Below are positions 10,287 to 20,990 of a stretch of DNA of 21,827 nt, piece by piece. Position 1 is the first letter of the stretch. The number at the start of each line of letters is the position of its first letter. The notes beneath the pieces were generated by a model. That model saw nothing but the letters and a program-made list of their open reading frames with translations, was not told where the DNA came from and ran no database searches. The stretch covers positions 1-21,827 of the IMG/VR virus record IMGVR_UViG_3300044695_000715. One strand, given 5' to 3'. A program made the translations under genes and the position numbers. This DNA comes from a virus.

Positions 10287-12067
10287 TGGCAACAGTACCC
10301 ATTTATGATCAACCACAAGTAAGCCCAAATGTCGGTCAGATGCCTGCGTTTCAAGCGCCGGGCGTAGAAGCAGCGCGTGATTTCACCGCAAAGCAAATAG
10401 AAGAGACAGGTCAAGCACAGGCGAATCTTGGCGCAAACATAATGCGCATTGTTGAGAAGCAAAAAGAAATTGAAGAAGATTCATTGCTTGACAAAGTTGA
10501 GCTTGGAAATCGTGAATTTATTGTCAAGTGGCAAGAAAAAAATGCAGGCAGAGTTGGTGAAAAAGCCGATGGTTTAACCAGTGAATTTTCTACTGAATAT
10601 TACAAAAGAGTAGAAGATCAGATAAAAGAATTTGGCGGAGATAAAGAATCTCGAATTGTTAAGCGATATCAAAACAAAGCCAATGAACTTGGTTTGGCGA
10701 CAATCGCAAAACTTTCTTCATTTGAGGCTGCGCAAAAACAGGAAGTACGAGTAAACAACAACAAAGCGCTTGGCAAAATGTTGAGCAACACAGCATCGTC
10801 TGCGCCTTTTTCAATGAAAGATGGCAAGGTAACTGATGGCCTAGAGTTTGAAAACAGTAAAAAAGATCTTATTCAGAACGTAAAAAAACGCGCTGAATTG
10901 CTTGGCTACGGAGAAAACTCCGACGTTTACAAACAACTTTTGCAAGAAGAATTGTCCACGGTTTACATGGACCGTGTGGCCAATATGGTCAACACAAACC
11001 CGCTTGCTGCACCAGCATACTTTGATCAGGTCAAAGAATTTATTGTGAACGATGAGTTTAAAAATAAATTCAAAGGCATGGCCACTAAAGTTGCTCAGGA
11101 AGCAGAGGCTGAAGGCTGGGTTGAGTCTAAGTTTACTCAAGCATTAGCAAGCAAAGACAATAAGTCTATTGCTAATTTGCGTTTGGATATTATGAATAAG
11201 TTTTCTGGAGATCAACAGAAAACTGCGCTTCAGGTATACGAGCAGCTAGAACAAAGCATGAAAACGCAAAATGAACAAATTAGAAAACAATTTGCGAACG
11301 AAGCTTGGGATACTGTTTTTAAGTCACAAACAACTTGGGGTGCTTTGCCAAATACAACTAAAGAATGGTTGCGCGAAAACGATCCAAATACTTACGCAAA
11401 TTTGGAGCAGTATATTGAAAACAACATTCGCGAGAAAAAGCGTGATGCCAGAGAAGCTCGTCAAGAATCGCGAGCCATTCGAACTGAACAAAGGTTAATA
11501 GAAAAAGAACGTCGCGAAGAAAAAGAAAACATTGCTTTTGGTGAATTGAATTCGATTATGGGCGCTAATCCAAAAGAATTCATGAACATGGATCTGAACA
11601 ATTGGAGAACAAGACTTTCAGAATCAGACTGGAAATGGTTTTCCAAACAGCAAACTGAATTTAAGCTTAAGCCAGAAACTCAAAAACAATCTGCGACATT
11701 ACAAAATAGAATCAACAATGAGGTAGACATTCTTAATCTTGGCGGCAACAAAGCAAAGAAAGCTCGCTTCGAAAAAATTATTTTGAACGAGGTAGATAGC
11801 TACATAATAAACAACAATGGCAAACAGCCTGATGCAAAGCAGTTAAATGCAATCATTAATGATGCCAAAAAAGAATATGTAACAAGTGAATTTTTAGGTA
11901 TTCGCTCTAAGTCTCGTCGTTTTGAGCTTCAAAAGGCAAAAACAATTAATGACATACCAAAAGATCTTTTGGGTGAAATTAAAACTGATCTTGCTAAGAG
12001 AAAATTACCAGCCACAAACGAAGACATCATCAACATTTACAATGTTTATGTAGGCCAAAATGACTGA
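10286..12067 (+). CDS. Internal virion protein, T7 gp15-like
   Basis: 593 residues. Coupled to the previous gene by TAATG, with GAAGGTG at 10271-10277 upstream. The sequence is almost entirely helical and highly charged. The N-terminal YDQPQVSPNVGQMPAFQAPG tail and the helix after it, then LLDKVELGNREFIVKW, resemble the opening of gp15-like internal proteins encoded between gp14- and gp16-like genes. A strongly charged coiled-coil stretch lies at about residues 375-415 (KKRDAREARQESRAIRTEQR, then LIEKERREEKEN). Assignment rests on gene order, length (T7 gp15 about 747) and composition rather than a sharp motif. The gene is AT-rich, with AAA-rich lysine codons, unlike the capsid and nozzle genes. 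It overlaps the next gene by eight bases. Confidence 0.75.
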   Translation: MATVPIYDQPQVSPNVGQMPAFQAPGVEAARDFTAKQIEETGQAQANLGANIMRIVEKQKEIEEDSLLDKVELGNREFIVKWQEKNAGRVGEKADGLTSEFSTEYYKRVEDQIKEFGGDKESRIVKRYQNKANELGLATIAKLSSFEAAQKQEVRVNNNKALGKMLSNTASSAPFSMKDGKVTDGLEFENSKKDLIQNVKKRAELLGYGENSDVYKQLLQEELSTVYMDRVANMVNTNPLAAPAYFDQVKEFIVNDEFKNKFKGMATKVAQEAEAEGWVESKFTQALASKDNKSIANLRLDIMNKFSGDQQKTALQVYEQLEQSMKTQNEQIRKQFANEAWDTVFKSQTTWGALPNTTKEWLRENDPNTYANLEQYIENNIREKKRDAREARQESRAIRTEQRLIEKERREEKENIAFGELNSIMGANPKEFMNMDLNNWRTRLSESDWKWFSKQQTEFKLKPETQKQSATLQNRINNEVDILNLGGNKAKKARFEKIILNEVDSYIINNNGKQPDAKQLNAIINDAKKEYVTSEFLGIRSKSRRFELQKAKTINDIPKDLLGEIKTDLAKRKLPATNEDIINIYNVYVGQND

Positions 12068-15000
12068 TTTTACTAGCGCGATTGATTCGGTATTTGAAGA
12101 AAAGCGGCGCAAGTCGCCAACGATAGATCCTGCAAAATCTACTGTTGGAAAATTTGATTCCGCAATTGAGCAGTACAAATCTAATCAGGCAGCAGTAGTT
12201 AATTACACAGCACAGCATTTACCTGCTGACTATGCTGAGTCAATGCGCGTTAGTAAGCAAAGCAACATACCTGCAGAGGTTGTTGGCACTGATTTAAATT
12301 ACTTTAAGTCGCTGACCGACATCCGACAGAAGCAGGAATATCTTGCAAAGAACCCCGGCCTTTGGCAGTTTGTTGAAAGAAATCCTGAGAAGTATGGGTT
12401 GATTCAAAACGATCTTGGGAAGATTGACAATGTAGTCAATGGCACACGGCTGGGTATTCAGCTTGATGTTAGTAACAAAAAGAAAGTATTTACCAAACGT
12501 CCAACAGCGGCTGATTTTCCTATTAATGCCGACCGCGGTTTTGTTGATTCTGTCAAAGAACTGAAATCAGCTCAGTTCCAATGGGATGACATCATGAGCC
12601 GTGGTGAGGCTCGCCCAATGGACCGCACCATTGCTCGTGGTGATTACAAGCAATTTGCAAAAGACTTGATTGAAGGCCGGCAGTACGACGTATTTTTGCG
12701 CGGTTACCAAGAGGGCAAGCAAGCTATTGGTATTGGCCTTGATCGTCTTGATTTGTTTAGCGGTGTCAATCGAGACATTGCTGCAGCTTGGGAAGCTGAA
12801 GGGCTGACATATTCGCCAAATGCTATTCGTGCCGCTCGCATTCAACAACAGCAACGAAACGCAGAAAAATACCCAATACCTTTGGGAGCTGAAGAAGGCT
12901 TGCGCGAAATACAGCAGGCAGATGGTCCCGGCGATTCGTTGATGGCGATCATCAAAAACCCATTTGCAGCAGCTTACGCAATTGAAAAATCGTTAGGCGC
13001 TGTTGCTCCGGGCGTGGCAGTCACCATTGGTTTGTCTACGCTTGGCCCACTTGGTACGGCGACTGGTGCAGGCTTGACCAGTTTCGCAATTGAATACGGA
13101 TCTACCATACAAGATGTAATGCAGGAAAATAAAGTCGACATGAATGATGTCGGCTCCCTCAGCCGTGCTTTACAAAATAAAGAATTGATGGACAAAGCTC
13201 GAGAAAAGGCAGTTGCTCGAGGCATACCTATCGCTTTGTTTGATGCTGCAACCGGTGGTTTGGCAGGTAGATTTTTGGCTGCTGCTGGTAAAACAAAACG
13301 CAGCATGGTTGGTGCAGTTACTGCAGAAGCTGGCGTACAAATGGCCGGCGGAGCGCTTGGTGAAATTACTGCGCAAAAAGTTAGTGGTGAAGAAAAATTA
13401 AAGTGGGGCGATATTTGGCTCGAAGCATTAGGCGAATTGCCTACAGCCGTGCCAGAAGCTTGGTCTAATTATGCTGGCCTGCGCGCAAAGTATGAGCAAA
13501 AGCAGGCAGAGCGCACAGACAACATTGTGAATGCAGCAGTAAATGCTGACATCATGCGCAATGCCATGAACCAAGTTAAAAGCATGGAGGCTGCAAACCT
13601 TGGGCAAGAAGGCAAAGAGGCTATTGCTCAAGTATTCAATCAATCCAATCCTGATGCTGCTGTCACCATCAACGTCAACAATTTGATGGAGCTGGCTACA
13701 GAAGAAGAGTTCAACACGCTGCAGTCATTAAATGAGGATTACGTTGCGCAAATCAAAAATGCGATCAATGATCAGACAGATGTCGAAATTAAGATGGGCG
13801 ACTTTCTGGCTGTTTTTTCGCAATCGCAAAGGTCTGAGGAAATTCTTGCAAATGTTCGTATGAACGATTCTGACGTTACTTTGGCTGAGGCTAAGGTAAT
13901 GGCAGAGGAAGAGGATGCGACGCTAAAGCAAGAGCTCGAGACTTTGATTGCTGATCAAGAACTGCGCCAGTCATTTTACGAAAGCAGAGAAGCGGTCAAG
14001 CAAGACATACTTGGCCAGCTTAATCAGGCAAACCGGTTCACATCGTCTGTAAACGAAGTAAACGCAACGCTTGCCGCGGCTCGATTTGCCACTCGTGCAG
14101 TGCAGCTCGGCATGTCGCCACAGGAGTTTTACGAGCAGCGTGGCTTAAATATTATGGCGCAGCCAATTGATCTTGCAACAGAAAATACTTTAGTTCAAAC
14201 AGAACGCGTAACAGTCACGGTGCCAGATGGTACCGTATCAGGTCAGGTTATAAACAAAACAGAAGACGGAACAATCGAGATTGTAGGCGACGACGGCCAA
14301 ATTTATCGTTTTAAGGTCGGCGAAAACGGTGTCACGATGCAGCCAAACATATCGTCGTTTGAAATTTTAGAAACTCCGCCCGAAGTTCTTGCCTTATATA
14401 GGAAAGAAAATGAAATCAAAGCGCAGATTTCCGCCGCAAACGAGGAAAAAGACAGGATTGCCGATACTGGCGACCAAACGGCTCTGCAAGAAGCATTTGA
14501 CAAAATAGATGCACTTCAAGCTGAATTGTTGGAAGTTGAACAAAAATCTATTGAAACTGCGCGTCGTATTCGATCTGAACGTCAAATAGAATCGCCTGAA
14601 ATTTTCAAACAGGCCGTCAAAGGCAAGCCCGGCGCAAACAATCCCGGCGCAGGCGTAGAGGATCGCAACCGACTTGGATTCTGGCCTGCATTGCGCGTCA
14701 AGATCACCGGCAAGGCAACGATTCCGGATAAGCCGCTGATCATGACTGGCACCACCAATGCCAACGCACAAAAGCAGATCGATCAAATCGACGCGATCAT
14801 GCGCAAGTTTCCGAACGCGACGGCCACGCCCGAGCAATGGTCAAAGATGATGGCCTACGCGCTGGGATCGGACGAAGTGCCGGTGCCGCCGTATGCATTC
14901 ATTCGTGACCTGAATGGCACTGGATCGATCGACAAGCTACGCACTCTGACGCAAGGCCAGATTGATGACGCTACTGCTGGATTCGACAATGCGCGTGAAT

Positions 15001-18000
15001 TCCGCCGGGCATATATTGCAGGAGAGCTATCGGTCGAAACTACCGGCAAGCTGTTTATGTGGTCGTTCCTGTCCCGCGGCGTTAGCCCGTACACACAGGA
15101 GGCGCTTTTCATTGACTCGTTCAATGGTGCCAATGAATGGATCGCTAAAGCGGCTCGCGGTGAGTTTACTGAGGCTGATTTCCCGGCATATGAGGCATGG
15201 GCCAAGTCAGTTGCCCCCAAGGGCAGCGGCCAGCCCGGCGCTGGTGCCACGCACAATCTGAACGCATTTGGGCAGGATTTCCTGTTCAAGATGTCCAAGA
15301 TCGGCAAAGACGGCAAGTCGCACCTGCAGCGGTTGCACGACATGATGGCTGACCCAAATCAAACCGGCAAACAAATCCGCCGGGAGTTTGCGACATTTGG
15401 CGAAGGCGTCGGCATCGACAACAAGGTCGTGTCGTTTACCCTGCTGGTGGCCGGCTTCAACGATGTGATGGTTCTGGACCGGGTGCAGATTCGCCAGCTG
15501 TGGGATGACGGCAAGTTTGCCGGCGTCAACCTGTATGACGGCAGCAAAGGCCCGGACGGCAAAAAGCTGGCAGGCTCATCGCTAAACAGTTTGGCCGAGG
15601 GCGTCCGTGGCATTTTGGTCTACGAGGCCATCGAGCGTGGTCTTGAAGCCAAGATCAAGCAGTTTTATACGGATCTGGGCCGGCCACAGGACGCCAGCAT
15701 TGGTCGGTATCACTGGGAGACATGGGTTGCAGACAGCCAGCAGGAGGCCGCTCATGGCTCTCTGGGCGCTATTTTGGCCGATGCCAAGGGTGACGATCAG
15801 GCGATTGCCAGCGTCCACGCCAAGCAGGGAGAATATGGTGCATATGAGTACGGAGCGCTGTACAATAGGGACGTAACGTCAACACCTTGGTTTGGCTATG
15901 AGACTCCGACTGGGAACACTTATGCGTTCTCGGTGCCTGCTTTCCGGGCATTTTTGGAGGACATCAAGCGCCCGGCCACTGGCGTTGTGCCGACAAAATT
16001 TAAAGTGACGGAGAGCGGAAATGCCCCTTGGTACACCAGACCAGAAGTCAACCAACAGCGCCTTGATGAGCGCGCAGCCTACTGGGCAGACCTTGCCGGC
16101 GGAACAGGCGAAGGGCGACTTGCTATTGAGCAAGCTACTCCGCCAGCGCAGCCCGATGGTGCCCGACCCCAGCCCGGAGACGGTGAATTTTTCCAGTCCG
16201 GAGGGGCAGGCGTTCAGCGCTTACGAACAAGCGATATCAATGTTGCCGCAAGATATGGCACCCCAAGAGATGGAGCCACTACAGTCGTTGGCGTCCACTA
16301 TAGCGGCATCCCTCGAAACACTCTCTCCGGACAATTCTACGGAACAGGGTTAAAGGGTGCTGAAGCTGGCCGGCTTGGCCAGAGCACTGATAACCGGATA
16401 TCAAACCGGATTCATTTTTACGTTGACACTGGCTCAGGCATAGCGCCTGAAGCTGGCGTTGGCGGCAATGCTCACGCAGTCAATCTACAAAATCTATATA
16501 ACCTTCAGGAAGATGCGCTGGGCCTGCGCGCACAAGCATCTGCTGCAGGCAGAGATCCGCAAAACCTGTGGTTCAACGGCGTCGAGTCAGCCGTGCTTGA
16601 TGCTGGCTTTGATGGTATTTACATGCCAACCGCACAGGGCACACAAGGCGTTGCCGTGCTTTTGGGCCCACAGCATGCCAATGTGCCCATCGATCAACTT
16701 GGCACACATTCAGATCCTAATGCTGTTGCGCGGATTCAGCCTGCTGTAAATAAGCGCCGAATATCTTTGCTGCCAGAAGAAATCCAAACTTTCTATGATC
16801 AGGAAGCGCAGATTAAACAAAGCGCGCCAAGTGCATACTTGCGCAATGGCAATCTGATTTTTGATGAGACTGATGTTCAAGGCGTTATCGACTTTTTCCC
16901 AGCAGCAGCCAATGCCAAGGTGCTAATGCAGAATGCTCGCGGCACGTTTAATCCGCGAACTAATACCATCACGTTCCTCAATGACGCAAACCTATCCACG
17001 TTTGCGCACGAGCTTGCACACTTTTTCTTTGAAGATGACATCCTGCTGGCATCTGAATTGCTGGCTAAAGAAAACATTACCATTGGTGAGCAGCAAATCA
17101 TCAACGATGTCAGCAAGCTGATGTCGTGGCATGGTATCCAAGGCAATGCTGTTGAGCAGATTCAACAGTATTTCAATATGGATTTTGAAGAAAAGCGCGC
17201 ATATCACGAGCGCACTGCTGAATCGTTTGAGCGCTACATGTTCAGCGGCAAAGCGCCGAGCATTGAATTGCAACCTTACTTCCAGCGGTTCCGCGCTTGG
17301 ATGATCAGTGTTTACAACTCTATCAAAGAATTTTTGCTCCGCAATCCTGAAGCCGGCAAACTTAATGCTGAGGTCAGAGAAGTGTTTGATCGTATGTTGG
17401 CTACCAATGACCAGATCGAGTTGGCCCAGCAAAATCGTTCGATGTTGCCGCTGTTTGAATCTGCGCAAGATGCCGGCATGACTACCGAAGAGTTTGCTCG
17501 GTATCAGCAAGAAAATGCTGAAGCCGGCGCATCTGCTATGGATGATCTGACAGCCAAGACATTGTCAGACATGAAGTGGATGGAAAACGCTAGAGCGCGT
17601 GAACTGCGTCGCCTGCAAAAAGAAGCCGCTGGCTTGCGCGCAGAAATGAAGATCGAGGCCAGTCGACAGATTTTGTCGCAGCCTGTGTATCAAGCTTGGC
17701 AGTTCTTGACTGGCAAAGCAGCGCAGCCATCTGTTGATCTGACTGAGTATCAACTTGAGGTAGCTGAATGGGAGCGCAAGAAAGCTGAAGCGCTTGACGA
17801 AGCTCGCATCGAGATTCGCACAAAGCTGTGGTCAGAATCGACTGAATCAAAGAAAACCTACGAAACAACACAGCAGGCTGGTCTGGCAAAAGGCCAGTTC
17901 TTGTCTAAGCGACGCAAAGATGTTGAGCTCGAGGTAAGCAAATTTGCTTTGGAATATGACCGCAACAATCCAAAGCCAAAGAAACCAGAGGTGCCAACAA

Positions 18001-20990
18001 CCATCGAAGAGATGGGCGAGGTTGTATACGGCAAGCTCAATACAGCAGCCGTGGCAGAGCTCGGCATCCCTGATGAGATTACTGGATTCTTGAAGACGCT
18101 GCGCATGGTGGCAACAGATGGTCTGGACCCAGACATGCTGGCCACGCAGTATGGCTTTTCATCTGGCGATGAACTGGTTAGATCATTGGCTGCTGCAGAA
18201 AAGCCTGAGATAGCTATTGAGAAGCTGACCGATCAATTGATGCTCGAGCAGTACGGTGAGTTTGCTACGCCGGAAGCATTGGCGATGGCCGCTGATATGG
18301 CTATTCACAATGAGGCGCGCGCTCGATTTATTGCGACTGAGATGGCTGCTGTTGCAAAAGCTGCTGGCAAGCCTCGTGTACTGGCAAACTCTGCAAAAAA
18401 TTATGCGCGCATGATCATTGATCGGATGAAGATCATTGACATCCGCCCAGTCAAATACGCATCAGCAGAAGCTCGTGCAGCAAAGGCCGCGGAAAAAGCA
18501 ATGATGGCCGGCAATACGCAAGAGGTCTACGCAGAAAAGCGTAACCAAATGCTGAACAATCAGACTGCAAAAGCTGCGTATGAAGCACTTGATGAGATTC
18601 AAAAAGGCGTCAGATACCTCAAGAAATTTGATAGCGAAGGTGTACGCAAAGCTATCGATATCGACTATCAGGATCAGATCGATACATTACTTGAGCGATT
18701 CAATCTCAGCTCTGGTCAAAGCCGCCGCAGCATTGAAAAGCGTAAGCAACTAGCCGACTGGCTTGCATCTCAGGAAGAGATGGGCATCGAGGTCGACATA
18801 TCGCCCAAGCTTAAAAATGAAGCGCTGCGCCAATCTTACAAAGAACTGACAGTCGAAGAGTTCCGCGGTCTGGTTGACACCATCAAACAAGTGGAGCACT
18901 TAGGCCGTCTAAAGCAGCGGCTACTGACACAGGCTGAAGATCGCAGATTTGCCGACATCATCACCGAGATGGTGACAGGCATTGAGTTCAATGGCGCAAA
19001 TAAAAAAGCAGTCAATCGCACCCGCGATACATTGCCCAGCCGAATCACGGCGCTGTTCAAAGGTTACACGGCAAGCCATCGAAAGGTGGCCAGCTTGGCT
19101 CGTGAGCTCGATGGATTCAAAGACGGTGGGCCGGTGTGGAATTACCTGATCCGTACTATGAACAATGCCGGCAACCGTGAAGCAACCATGCGAGCTGAAG
19201 CAACCAAGCGCATGGCTGAGTTAATCAAGCCAATCATGAAGCTTGGCAAGATGGGCGGCAACGGAAAGTTTTTCCCGACAATTGGCCAAAGCTTGAACCG
19301 CGGTGAGCGCATTGTCATGGTCTTAAACATGGGCAACGCAGGCAACATGCAGCGCTTGCTTGATGGTTATGGCTGGACTCGTGAACAGGTACAGCCAATC
19401 ATTGATAGCCTGAGCCAAGAAGAACTCACATTTGTACAAAATGTCTGGGACTTCTTTGAAAGCTATCGGCCAATAATTGCTGAGAAAGAGCGCCGGGTTA
19501 TGGGCAAAGAGCCAAACTGGGTTGACCCGGTGCCGCTCGATACCAAGGCTGGCCGGCTACGCGGTGGATATTTCCCAATTGTTTACGATCCAAAGATGTC
19601 TGGCCGGGCTGAACAGCAGTCGGACGCTGAAGCAGCAAAGCAGCAATTGCGTGGGGCGTTCGTGGCCGCGACAACCCGTCGTAGCTACGTTCAATCGCGC
19701 GCTGAGGCCGTGATGGACCGTCCGATACTCCTGACATGGGATGGCCTGTTCCGTGGCGTCAATGAGGTCATTCATGATCTGACATGGCACGAGTGGGTGA
19801 TCGATGCCAACCGCATCGTCAAGAATGGTGAATTTGATGATGCCGTGCGTAGCCGGTACGGTGCCGAAGTAGTTCAGCAATTTAAGGCGGCGATCCGAGA
19901 TATTGCGGCAGGCGAATCTGCAGCACTGCAGCCTATCGAAAAAGGGCTCAACTATCTACGTGCAGGATCGGCCATCGCCGGCTTGGGCTTCAATATCATG
20001 AACGCTTTCCTGCAGCCGCTGGGCCTGACACAGTCTATTGTCCGCATCGGTCCTAAGTGGGTAGCCATGGGCATTGGCAAGTGGGCTTCATCACCGGTTG
20101 GCATGGTTAAGGAAGTTTGGTCTAAGTCGGAATTCATGATGAACCGGCACATGACCCAGCAGCGTGAAATGAACGAGATTCAATCGGTGGTACAGGGCAA
20201 AGGCCCAATCCGCCAGAAGATCGACACGCTGATGTTTGTTCCGATGATCAGCCTGCAGTTGATTGCAGATATGCCGACATGGTGGGGTGCTTATCAGAAG
20301 GCGCTGGCCGATGTAAATGTCGACATGACCGAAGAGGCCATCGAAAGCCGGGCGATTGCGCTGGCTGATCAGGCTGTGCTGGATTCGCAGTCGGGTGGCC
20401 AGATCAAGGATCTAGCACAGGTACAGCGCGGTGGTGCGGCATTGAAGCTGTTTACCGTGTTTTATGGCTACTTCTCGGCTTCCTACAATCTGGGCGTCGA
20501 GCGCGCAAAAGCTACGAACTTCCGCAAGCCGCTCGATATCATGCATCTCGGCTGGGATTTCTTGATGCTGTATTCGGTGCCATCCGTACTGGGCATGATG
20601 CTTAAAGATTCTTTGCAGCCGGGTGATGAGGATGACGAAGAAGAGCTGGCCGCAAAGCTGGCAGGCGAACAGATCAGCTACTTGATGAACATGATGGTCG
20701 GCCTGCGGGAAGCTGTGGGCGCAGTTCAGTACATGACTGGCACCAAGCAATTTGATGCGTCCTACGGTGGCCCGGCTGGCCTGCGGTTCTTCCAAGAGCT
20801 CGATAAGCTTGGCAAGCAAATCGGTCAGGGCGACCTTGACCGGGCGCTGCTTAGATCCATGGTCAACGTGATGGGCATTACCTTGCATCTACCATCAGCT
20901 CAGGCAAACCGGACCATTGATGGCGTTATGGCATTGAGCGAAGGTGAGACTGAAAACCCAATGGCCATCCTGACGGGATTCAAGAAATAG
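12060..20990 (+). CDS. Giant internal virion (polyvalent, gp16-like) protein with glycosylase-, ADP-ribosyltransferase- and zinc-peptidase-like domains
   Basis: 2976 residues, more than twice T7 gp16. ATG 12060 overlaps the gp15-like stop by eight bases; the ribosome-binding site (AGG at 12052-12054) is weak, so coupling is likely. Visible layout: N-terminal helical domain (1-120, NIPAEVVGTDL); hydrophobic Gly/Ala segments at about 302-350 and 385-465, possibly membrane-inserting; coiled coil about 770-850; GC-rich module about 865-1375 with an HhH-GPD/OGG-like motif, GVGIDNKVVSF (1116-1126) and VLDRVQIRQLW (1138-1148); ADP-ribosyltransferase-like domain about 1395-1590 (H1413-Y1414, Y1454, E1509 candidates); zincin with FAHELAHFF (H1650, E1651, H1654) and HERTAESFE (E1717 as third ligand); long helical region about 1780-2250; C-terminal gp16-like region with hydrophobic helices and an acidic GDEDDEEEL. 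No transglycosylase signature was seen. It is expected to be ejected into the host at infection. Confidence 0.88.
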   Translation: MTDFTSAIDSVFEEKRRKSPTIDPAKSTVGKFDSAIEQYKSNQAAVVNYTAQHLPADYAESMRVSKQSNIPAEVVGTDLNYFKSLTDIRQKQEYLAKNPGLWQFVERNPEKYGLIQNDLGKIDNVVNGTRLGIQLDVSNKKKVFTKRPTAADFPINADRGFVDSVKELKSAQFQWDDIMSRGEARPMDRTIARGDYKQFAKDLIEGRQYDVFLRGYQEGKQAIGIGLDRLDLFSGVNRDIAAAWEAEGLTYSPNAIRAARIQQQQRNAEKYPIPLGAEEGLREIQQADGPGDSLMAIIKNPFAAAYAIEKSLGAVAPGVAVTIGLSTLGPLGTATGAGLTSFAIEYGSTIQDVMQENKVDMNDVGSLSRALQNKELMDKAREKAVARGIPIALFDAATGGLAGRFLAAAGKTKRSMVGAVTAEAGVQMAGGALGEITAQKVSGEEKLKWGDIWLEALGELPTAVPEAWSNYAGLRAKYEQKQAERTDNIVNAAVNADIMRNAMNQVKSMEAANLGQEGKEAIAQVFNQSNPDAAVTINVNNLMELATEEEFNTLQSLNEDYVAQIKNAINDQTDVEIKMGDFLAVFSQSQRSEEILANVRMNDSDVTLAEAKVMAEEEDATLKQELETLIADQELRQSFYESREAVKQDILGQLNQANRFTSSVNEVNATLAAARFATRAVQLGMSPQEFYEQRGLNIMAQPIDLATENTLVQTERVTVTVPDGTVSGQVINKTEDGTIEIVGDDGQIYRFKVGENGVTMQPNISSFEILETPPEVLALYRKENEIKAQISAANEEKDRIADTGDQTALQEAFDKIDALQAELLEVEQKSIETARRIRSERQIESPEIFKQAVKGKPGANNPGAGVEDRNRLGFWPALRVKITGKATIPDKPLIMTGTTNANAQKQIDQIDAIMRKFPNATATPEQWSKMMAYALGSDEVPVPPYAFIRDLNGTGSIDKLRTLTQGQIDDATAGFDNAREFRRAYIAGELSVETTGKLFMWSFLSRGVSPYTQEALFIDSFNGANEWIAKAARGEFTEADFPAYEAWAKSVAPKGSGQPGAGATHNLNAFGQDFLFKMSKIGKDGKSHLQRLHDMMADPNQTGKQIRREFATFGEGVGIDNKVVSFTLLVAGFNDVMVLDRVQIRQLWDDGKFAGVNLYDGSKGPDGKKLAGSSLNSLAEGVRGILVYEAIERGLEAKIKQFYTDLGRPQDASIGRYHWETWVADSQQEAAHGSLGAILADAKGDDQAIASVHAKQGEYGAYEYGALYNRDVTSTPWFGYETPTGNTYAFSVPAFRAFLEDIKRPATGVVPTKFKVTESGNAPWYTRPEVNQQRLDERAAYWADLAGGTGEGRLAIEQATPPAQPDGARPQPGDGEFFQSGGAGVQRLRTSDINVAARYGTPRDGATTVVGVHYSGIPRNTLSGQFYGTGLKGAEAGRLGQSTDNRISNRIHFYVDTGSGIAPEAGVGGNAHAVNLQNLYNLQEDALGLRAQASAAGRDPQNLWFNGVESAVLDAGFDGIYMPTAQGTQGVAVLLGPQHANVPIDQLGTHSDPNAVARIQPAVNKRRISLLPEEIQTFYDQEAQIKQSAPSAYLRNGNLIFDETDVQGVIDFFPAAANAKVLMQNARGTFNPRTNTITFLNDANLSTFAHELAHFFFEDDILLASELLAKENITIGEQQIINDVSKLMSWHGIQGNAVEQIQQYFNMDFEEKRAYHERTAESFERYMFSGKAPSIELQPYFQRFRAWMISVYNSIKEFLLRNPEAGKLNAEVREVFDRMLATNDQIELAQQNRSMLPLFESAQDAGMTTEEFARYQQENAEAGASAMDDLTAKTLSDMKWMENARARELRRLQKEAAGLRAEMKIEASRQILSQPVYQAWQFLTGKAAQPSVDLTEYQLEVAEWERKKAEALDEARIEIRTKLWSESTESKKTYETTQQAGLAKGQFLSKRRKDVELEVSKFALEYDRNNPKPKKPEVPTTIEEMGEVVYGKLNTAAVAELGIPDEITGFLKTLRMVATDGLDPDMLATQYGFSSGDELVRSLAAAEKPEIAIEKLTDQLMLEQYGEFATPEALAMAADMAIHNEARARFIATEMAAVAKAAGKPRVLANSAKNYARMIIDRMKIIDIRPVKYASAEARAAKAAEKAMMAGNTQEVYAEKRNQMLNNQTAKAAYEALDEIQKGVRYLKKFDSEGVRKAIDIDYQDQIDTLLERFNLSSGQSRRSIEKRKQLADWLASQEEMGIEVDISPKLKNEALRQSYKELTVEEFRGLVDTIKQVEHLGRLKQRLLTQAEDRRFADIITEMVTGIEFNGANKKAVNRTRDTLPSRITALFKGYTASHRKVASLARELDGFKDGGPVWNYLIRTMNNAGNREATMRAEATKRMAELIKPIMKLGKMGGNGKFFPTIGQSLNRGERIVMVLNMGNAGNMQRLLDGYGWTREQVQPIIDSLSQEELTFVQNVWDFFESYRPIIAEKERRVMGKEPNWVDPVPLDTKAGRLRGGYFPIVYDPKMSGRAEQQSDAEAAKQQLRGAFVAATTRRSYVQSRAEAVMDRPILLTWDGLFRGVNEVIHDLTWHEWVIDANRIVKNGEFDDAVRSRYGAEVVQQFKAAIRDIAAGESAALQPIEKGLNYLRAGSAIAGLGFNIMNAFLQPLGLTQSIVRIGPKWVAMGIGKWASSPVGMVKEVWSKSEFMMNRHMTQQREMNEIQSVVQGKGPIRQKIDTLMFVPMISLQLIADMPTWWGAYQKALADVNVDMTEEAIESRAIALADQAVLDSQSGGQIKDLAQVQRGGAALKLFTVFYGYFSASYNLGVERAKATNFRKPLDIMHLGWDFLMLYSVPSVLGMMLKDSLQPGDEDDEEELAAKLAGEQISYLMNMMVGLREAVGAVQYMTGTKQFDASYGGPAGLRFFQELDKLGKQIGQGDLDRALLRSMVNVMGITLHLPSAQANRTIDGVMALSEGETENPMAILTGFKK
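16021..16353 (+). CDS. Candidate overprinted gene, +1 frame inside the giant internal protein gene
   Basis: 110 codons in the +1 frame relative to the giant gene. An in-frame TGA at 16006-16008 bounds it upstream. GGAG at 16010-16013 lies seven bases before ATG 16021, a good ribosome-binding site. The product (starting MPLGTPDQKSTNSALMSAQP, later PEGQAFSAYEQAISMLPQDM) has no Cys, His or Trp, is Gln/Pro/Ser/Met rich and acidic (13 acidic, 5 basic residues). Out-of-frame readings elsewhere in this genome are instead rich in Cys, His, Trp and Arg. In the overlap the giant gene's own frame uses unusual codons (7 of 10 Arg are AGA/CGA, 9 of 17 Gly are GGA/GGG), against 0 of 8 and 0 of 16 in its codons at 15361-15720. 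It lies over the linker and start of the ART-like domain. I recognise no family. An acquired segment with foreign codon use is the alternative. Confidence 0.45.
   Translation: MPLGTPDQKSTNSALMSAQPTGQTLPAEQAKGDLLLSKLLRQRSPMVPDPSPETVNFSSPEGQAFSAYEQAISMLPQDMAPQEMEPLQSLASTIAASLETLSPDNSTEQG

Follow-up and report, generated by a model that had tools for sequence, protein, structure and literature searches.

A conserved small gene, very probably translated separately, in the +1 frame of a giant phage virion-protein gene

In the Rz/Rz1 spanin pairs a small gene is read in the +1 frame relative to its partner. Depending on the phage, the Rz/Rz1 partner genes are embedded, overlapping or separate (PMC6139136). 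The locus analysed here holds a small +1-frame gene within the gene of a giant protein, which itself resembles two described groups. Its architecture looks like that of the polyvalent proteins (Iyer et al., 2017, PMC5512222), a single large polypeptide combining parts that are LPD22-like, ART-like and HELAH peptidase-like; the text of that study contains neither 'glycosylase' nor 'overlapping', and a nested gene is not described in it. With the T7 gp16-type ejection proteins it shares its place, the giant gene being the last of three core genes in an internal virion gene cluster. Domain swapping is usual between ejection proteins, and their gp16-like homologues measure 609-1337 aa according to a review whose text does not contain the word 'overlap' (PMC8954989), whereas the giant protein here has 2976 aa. 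A literature search retrieved no paper on the overlapping gene described below.

The overlapping frame in the window and its nearest relatives

The window, which is the whole stretch of 21,827 nucleotides that was analysed (IMG/VR virus record IMGVR_UViG_3300044695_000715), contains the following features.

12060..20990, + strand: host gene, giant internal-virion / polyvalent-type protein, 2976 aa
14643..16094, + strand: domain A of the giant protein (giant aa 862-1345), always 5' of the N-segment
16006..16008, + strand: +1-frame TGA just 5' of ATG 16021
16010..16013, + strand: Shine-Dalgarno-like GGAG, 7 bases 5' of ATG 16021
16021..16353, + strand: candidate small gene of 110 aa that overlaps the giant gene in the +1 frame; TAA stop at 16351-16353
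16123..16170, + strand: N-segment motif of the small protein (LLSKLLRQRSPMVPDP), over the giant-frame linker; predicted helix 26-41
16195..16350, + strand: C-segment of the small protein (...FSAYEQAISMLPQDMAPQEMEPLQSLASTI...STEQG), over the start of the ART-like region
16197..16859, + strand: ART-like region of the giant protein, as assigned in an earlier note on this DNA

Pfam searches returned no match for the ART-like region, the LPD22 match in the giant protein is weak, and a match to phrog_9880 spans its residues 1618-2968.

The earlier note, made from the letters alone, had proposed an overprinted gene encoding a small separate protein. The TGA, GGAG, ATG, TAA and 110 codons from which it argued are all present on the sequence, and the product is acidic (D+E 13, K+R 5) and free of Cys, His and Trp, as it had stated. 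The product starts with MPLGTPDQKST, is Pro/Ser-rich and has a conserved Pro-containing tail. Its predicted structure is poor (pLDDT 65, pTM 0.25; three helices only) and thus gives no clue to function. It has no PHROG match, and Pfam yielded only Caprin-1_C at an E value of 0.3. The shift of giant-frame codons in the overlap to AGA/CGA (7 of 10 Arg) and GGA/GGG (9 of 17 Gly) was counted exactly, as was their absence from the 8 Arg and 16 Gly codons at 15361-15720; over the whole giant gene these codons account for 35 of 175 Arg and 37 of 235 Gly.

The stretch is the longest same-strand out-of-frame opening in the giant gene (114 codons), the next ones having 103, 101 and 96. The other +1 stop-free stretches of 96-103 codons in the giant gene lie at 16444-16749, 14950-15261 and 15586-15876, the last two of which sit where relatives often have +1 stops. 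When synonymous codons were redrawn under the amino acids of the giant frame and its codon usage, the ORF stretch stayed open with a probability of 0.12. In view of this value and of the rival openings, ORF length was dropped as evidence. Judged from the window alone the ORF is no more than chance would give; its significance rests on the relatives.

Four IMG/VR contigs (L002-L005) contain the whole region, and all four retain the ATG, the stop and the open +1 frame. In this comparison the giant-frame synonymous divergence is 0.09-0.25 in the overlap versus 0.3-0.7 in most other regions. The reduced synonymous variation expected by the earlier note is thus seen, but only part of it can be credited to a second frame: in the comparisons of the window with L002 and L005 the dip starts near 15660, about 360 bases 5' of the ORF, so that recombination explains part of it. 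Between the window and L002/L005, pS is about 0.13 at 15660-16020, versus 0.44; this low divergence is likely due to recombination, and another constraint may contribute. The window and L003 are similar over the 520 codons before the overlap, too. Since the dip precedes the ORF, it was dropped as sole evidence from the nearest clade.

Recombination does not explain how the changes are distributed. Between the window and L005, 8 changes in the overlap are silent for the giant frame alone and 7 for the +1 frame alone, compared to 14:0 just upstream and 61:15 downstream. Counted by column in the nearest clade, first- versus third-position changes are 15:22 in the overlap versus 404:1156 elsewhere, which is borderline (p = 0.057), and versus 4:33 in the 120 codons just upstream (p = 0.007). 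At identical residues the codon identity between the window and L003 is 0.91 in the overlap versus 0.57 outside it (p=2e-6), a contrast that is confounded by the recombination upstream in this clade.

Conservation of the second frame among distant relatives

The small gene begins at or near the 3' end of domain A. An AlphaFold2 model of this domain (pLDDT 87) places its residues 88-371 (14904-15755, giant aa 949-1232) on the fold of the archaeal 8-oxoguanine DNA glycosylase. In VIA-align 2 the best matches were Tm1821 (3n0u, Z 15.8) and MjOgg (3knt, Z 15.6), with an rmsd of about 3 over ~205 residues, followed by other glycosylases of the same superfamily with Z near 10; Foldseek alone gave the same top match with an E value of 0.006. 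Lys 261 and Asp 279 of domain A (giant aa 1122 and 1140) are invariant in 28 sequences and lie 18 residues apart, a spacing that matches MjOgg. Domain A is like the archaeal-type 8-oxoguanine DNA glycosylase (3n0u, 3knt) in its fold, and its invariant Lys and Asp may correspond to the catalytic pair; it differs from Tm1821 and MjOgg in an identity of only 14-15% and in about 200 further residues. Its modelled fold is HhH-GPD 8-oxoguanine glycosylase-like, and glycosylase activity is putative. Pfam does not recognize the domain, and it was not found in any record of the phages collection. It is widespread in uncultured phages and is linked to the small gene in every domain-A locus.

The domain-A set comprises 75 loci, nearly all from uncultured phages, which form 45 clusters at 93% nucleotide identity. 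Across the 45 clusters, the +1 frame after the GNAPWY sequence encodes a short protein with a motif that ends in Pro-Met/Ile and reads roughly [RE]-x-L-[FM]-x-x-[ML]-x-K-x-K-x-(FY)-P-[MI]. Frame and motif are retained in 45/45 clusters and in about 11 held-out clusters, and we found no relative that keeps the giant protein here and loses the +1 frame. Over a fixed interval spanning the motif, the +1 frame is broken in 1 of 45 clusters, at a position 5' of that locus's own ATG, and the +2 frame in 33 of 45; in four upstream control intervals the +1 frame is broken in 25-36 of 45.

One locus shows an apparent frame break of another kind. In L040 (1149-1556) the host frame meets a stop at +135 and the small frame enters what is the host frame of close relatives, which is either a sequencing error or a real fusion. 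L040 was excluded from the similarity statistics and from the tally of unfused host genes.

The second frame is better conserved than the first. In 14 columns over the motif, from a thinned set of 24 divergent sequences, pairwise BLOSUM scores average 26.9 for the +1 frame versus 7.5 for the giant frame. When synonymous codons were drawn anew under unchanged giant proteins, the +1 frame scored 0.07 (sd 1.13), and the best of 500 draws reached 3.97. Free realignment gave 33.5 versus 14.1, with a null of 3.5 (sd 2.1). Independent redrawing in each sequence erases shared ancestry at silent sites, so that Z values from this null make the result look more certain than it is; thinning of the set and the use of held-out loci serve as safeguards against this bias. 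Codons of the motif are conserved at +1-frame positions 1 and 2 and vary at position 3 (Pro as CCG, CCA or CCC; Leu as CTA, CTG, TTG or CTC), which argues that the constraint acts on a protein.

A profile HMM of the motif, built from the first set, picks up all domain-A loci and gives no other match within them. The held-out set, fetched later by domain A alone, consists of 16 loci in about 11 distinct clusters. In 15 of the 16 the top match of the motif HMM fell on the +1 ORF where it was expected, three of these matches being weak (E 0.007-0.08), and the sixteenth, L163, has a diverged copy of the motif by eye. In L138, a contig of a bacterial MAG (Opitutae), the expected ORF scores best among the 209 ORFs of the locus.

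The position of the small gene relative to its host gene differs between phages. In L022 and L023 the motif lies beyond the end of the host gene, which stops 87 bases past the anchor; the host gene of L163 likewise ends ahead of the motif, at a similar place. In all three the small ORF with the motif runs on to a stop of its own, and just behind it the next gene begins. There the conservation of the motif cannot be a by-product of the giant frame, and we regard this case, as read from the sequences, as the strongest single fact for a small gene. The small gene is nested near the 3' end of the host gene in 11 clusters and deeply nested in 23, and in 8 further clusters the host frame runs over it to the end of the available sequence. 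Family members have about 44-150 residues. The longest, with 148 aa, is found in L007 (5701-6144), where the small frame lies over a different downstream host domain. The sub-family searches A3 and A4 yielded no stand-alone copies elsewhere, and for the small product of L060 the phages collection gave chance-level matches only.

A second group of relatives covers the other half of the overlap. These ART-region relatives (L072-L107; Limnohabitans phage DC33 = L086, phage zth2-2 = L087, L105) have another domain upstream, and their +1 frame shows no interruption before a stop in the same position. Their small product is alike over the last ~50 residues (...YEQAISMLPNDM...LQSLASTI...TEQA). Thus, with regard to loss of the start or stop, L002-L005 keep both and the ART-region relatives keep the C-terminal half and the stop. 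In the DC33 group the small ORF has its own ATG after a AAAGGAAG-type sequence, and in DC33 itself it reads as follows.

PQ492659.1, 26932-26747, minus strand: small ORF of DC33, product MENPQSLPNQEPEVAAFNAYEQ...

At identical residues the codon identity exceeds the outside level in all pairs tested, and in most of them significantly so. The excess is clear within the DC33 group (L086-L103: 0.91 vs 0.60, p=1e-5), several distant pairs reach p values of 0.006-0.05, and some are not significant. The small product of the window joins two separately conserved segments, the N-segment and the C-segment. Phrog_2136, whose function is not assigned, matches the C-segment weakly in 3 of 7 relatives (best E 0.0036); we rejected it as the stand-alone home of this segment, since the match is weak and at E <= 1 also occurs in 12 of 14 unrelated control genomes. 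The DC33 record has only the host CDS annotated over the small gene. Its taxonomy is given as Inoviridae (PQ492659.1), yet it has 39 kb with a 9.4-kb CDS related to the giant gene, and the label looks wrong.

Translation, function and alternative readings

A conserved open frame, lower synonymous variation, excess similarity in the second frame and a start signal were all found for this ORF. In our judgement it is very probably a real gene that is translated separately, as the earlier note had proposed. Comparison with the relatives shows dual coding, a gene family and its linkage to domain A, and the start signals strongly suggest separate translation.

As to function, we tentatively guess that the small protein may serve the giant ejected protein as an accessory, for example as assembly partner, chaperone or regulator. 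Given its fixed place next to an enzyme-like domain in a giant protein of the ejected type, this is the most economical guess. In the main alternative, the gene would be real and its product would restrain the glycosylase-like and ART-like domains in the producing cell, like an immunity protein. The linkage of the glycosylase-like domain in every domain-A locus, and of the C-segment to the ART-like region, fits such a role, but the same linkage is equally expected for an assembly partner and the small product has no confident fold, so we consider restraint rather unlikely.

The small protein is very probably made from its own internal start on the late mRNA, where the GGAG, a 7-base spacer and ATG 16021 would direct synthesis of the 110 residues. 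The small frame always follows domain A in the same +1 relation, and some clusters have no +1 stop directly upstream. Both would also be expected of a programmed frameshift, by which ribosomes would leave the giant frame after domain A and add the small sequence as an alternative C-terminus. Against this, a +1 stop lies within 24 nt 5' of the ATG in 33 of 45 clusters, and the start itself moves between loci: start offsets are +1 in 24 clusters, +64 in 11 and +46 in 6, the others single, so that they range over -38, -5, +1, +46, +64, +76 and +82, mostly with a Shine-Dalgarno match. A match of at least 4 bases precedes 41 of 45 starts, compared to 189 of 733 (26%) control ATGs. Moreover, no common slip site was noticed by eye, and the C-segment family has its own Shine-Dalgarno sequence and ATG where domain A is absent. 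A frameshift is therefore very unlikely, and the start signals argue strongly for independent initiation of the small gene. The usual ATG arises from the codon of the anchor Asn, for which AAT is used in 36 of 44 cases, compared to 606 of 1813 gene-wide, and in L008, where the usual ATG is lost, another ATG with AAGGA is present. The GGAG at offset +1 is partly dictated by the host residues TESGNA and thus weighs less than the Shine-Dalgarno matches of the other starts.

According to a further reading there is no gene, the opening having arisen by chance in a recombined or acquired segment whose foreign codon usage causes the codon shift; it can point to the non-significant ORF length and to the synonymous divergence that falls already 5' of the ORF, but with a motif present in every cluster and in new loci, absent elsewhere in those loci and persisting outside the host gene in L022, L023 and L163, it has hardly any probability left and, provided that the alignments are right, is refuted by the data at hand. 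An acquired segment, which the earlier note had named as a competing explanation, is not required to explain the frame. That the conservation reflects a signal in RNA or DNA instead of a protein, for instance a regulatory or recombination site, is just as improbable, because its location at a domain junction of a mosaic gene, where such sites could matter, is outweighed by the variation at third +1 positions and by conservation that tracks residues rather than bases.

Origin of the overlap and comparison with known systems

The small frame is probably the older as well as the better conserved of the two, the giant-frame linker having been imposed later. In the overlap the host-frame codon preference drops from 0.18 to -0.06 and that of the +1 frame climbs from -0.15 to 0.02, which, together with the better conservation of the +1 frame, fits a small gene that came first and was later overprinted by the host frame. 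In the window's own overlap the preference is alike in both frames (-0.06 and -0.10). The upstream gene would have lost its stop, so that its frame came to lie over the pre-existing small gene. In some phages the host gene ends at this point, and the small gene follows it as an ordinary overlapping neighbour downstream; in the majority the host frame continues across the small gene, often into other domains, and buries it. We propose this order, small gene first and host read-through and fusion later, with moderate confidence from an unrooted comparison.

A fuller scenario can be drawn, although as a whole it is doubtful. An ordinary small gene would have been trapped when the glycosylase-like gene upstream of it lost its stop and became fused to what followed, which gave rise to giant multi-domain proteins; domain shuffling would then have swapped overprinted stretches along with the domains, so that the small protein of the window would combine a stretch of glycosylase-side origin with another of ART-side origin, and would act as a dedicated partner or inhibitor of ejected enzyme domains.

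The small gene appears to be old, and no record whose annotation could be checked lists it. Nested frames escape gene callers, and a gene conserved in every one of these phages has thus been overlooked. The series of architectures, in which the host gene ends inside the small gene, ends just after it or extends kilobases beyond, could allow the burial of a separate gene within a fused gene to be traced, and it shows how a second coded message can travel with domains that ejected proteins exchange in mosaic fashion. Finally, the small protein is a candidate to be sought in these virions.

A Rz1-type o-spanin does not fit the MPLGTPDQKST start, the absence of Cys and the location in an internal virion gene cluster. 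As in Rz/Rz1 of lambda and its relatives, a small gene occupies the +1 frame, and here too the host gene either ends inside the small gene or passes it. Unlike Rz1, the small product has no Cys and hence no lipobox, no sequence relation was seen, and the gene lies in a giant virion-protein gene outside any lysis cassette. The small genes make up a new overlapping-gene family that is comparable in kind to Rz/Rz1.
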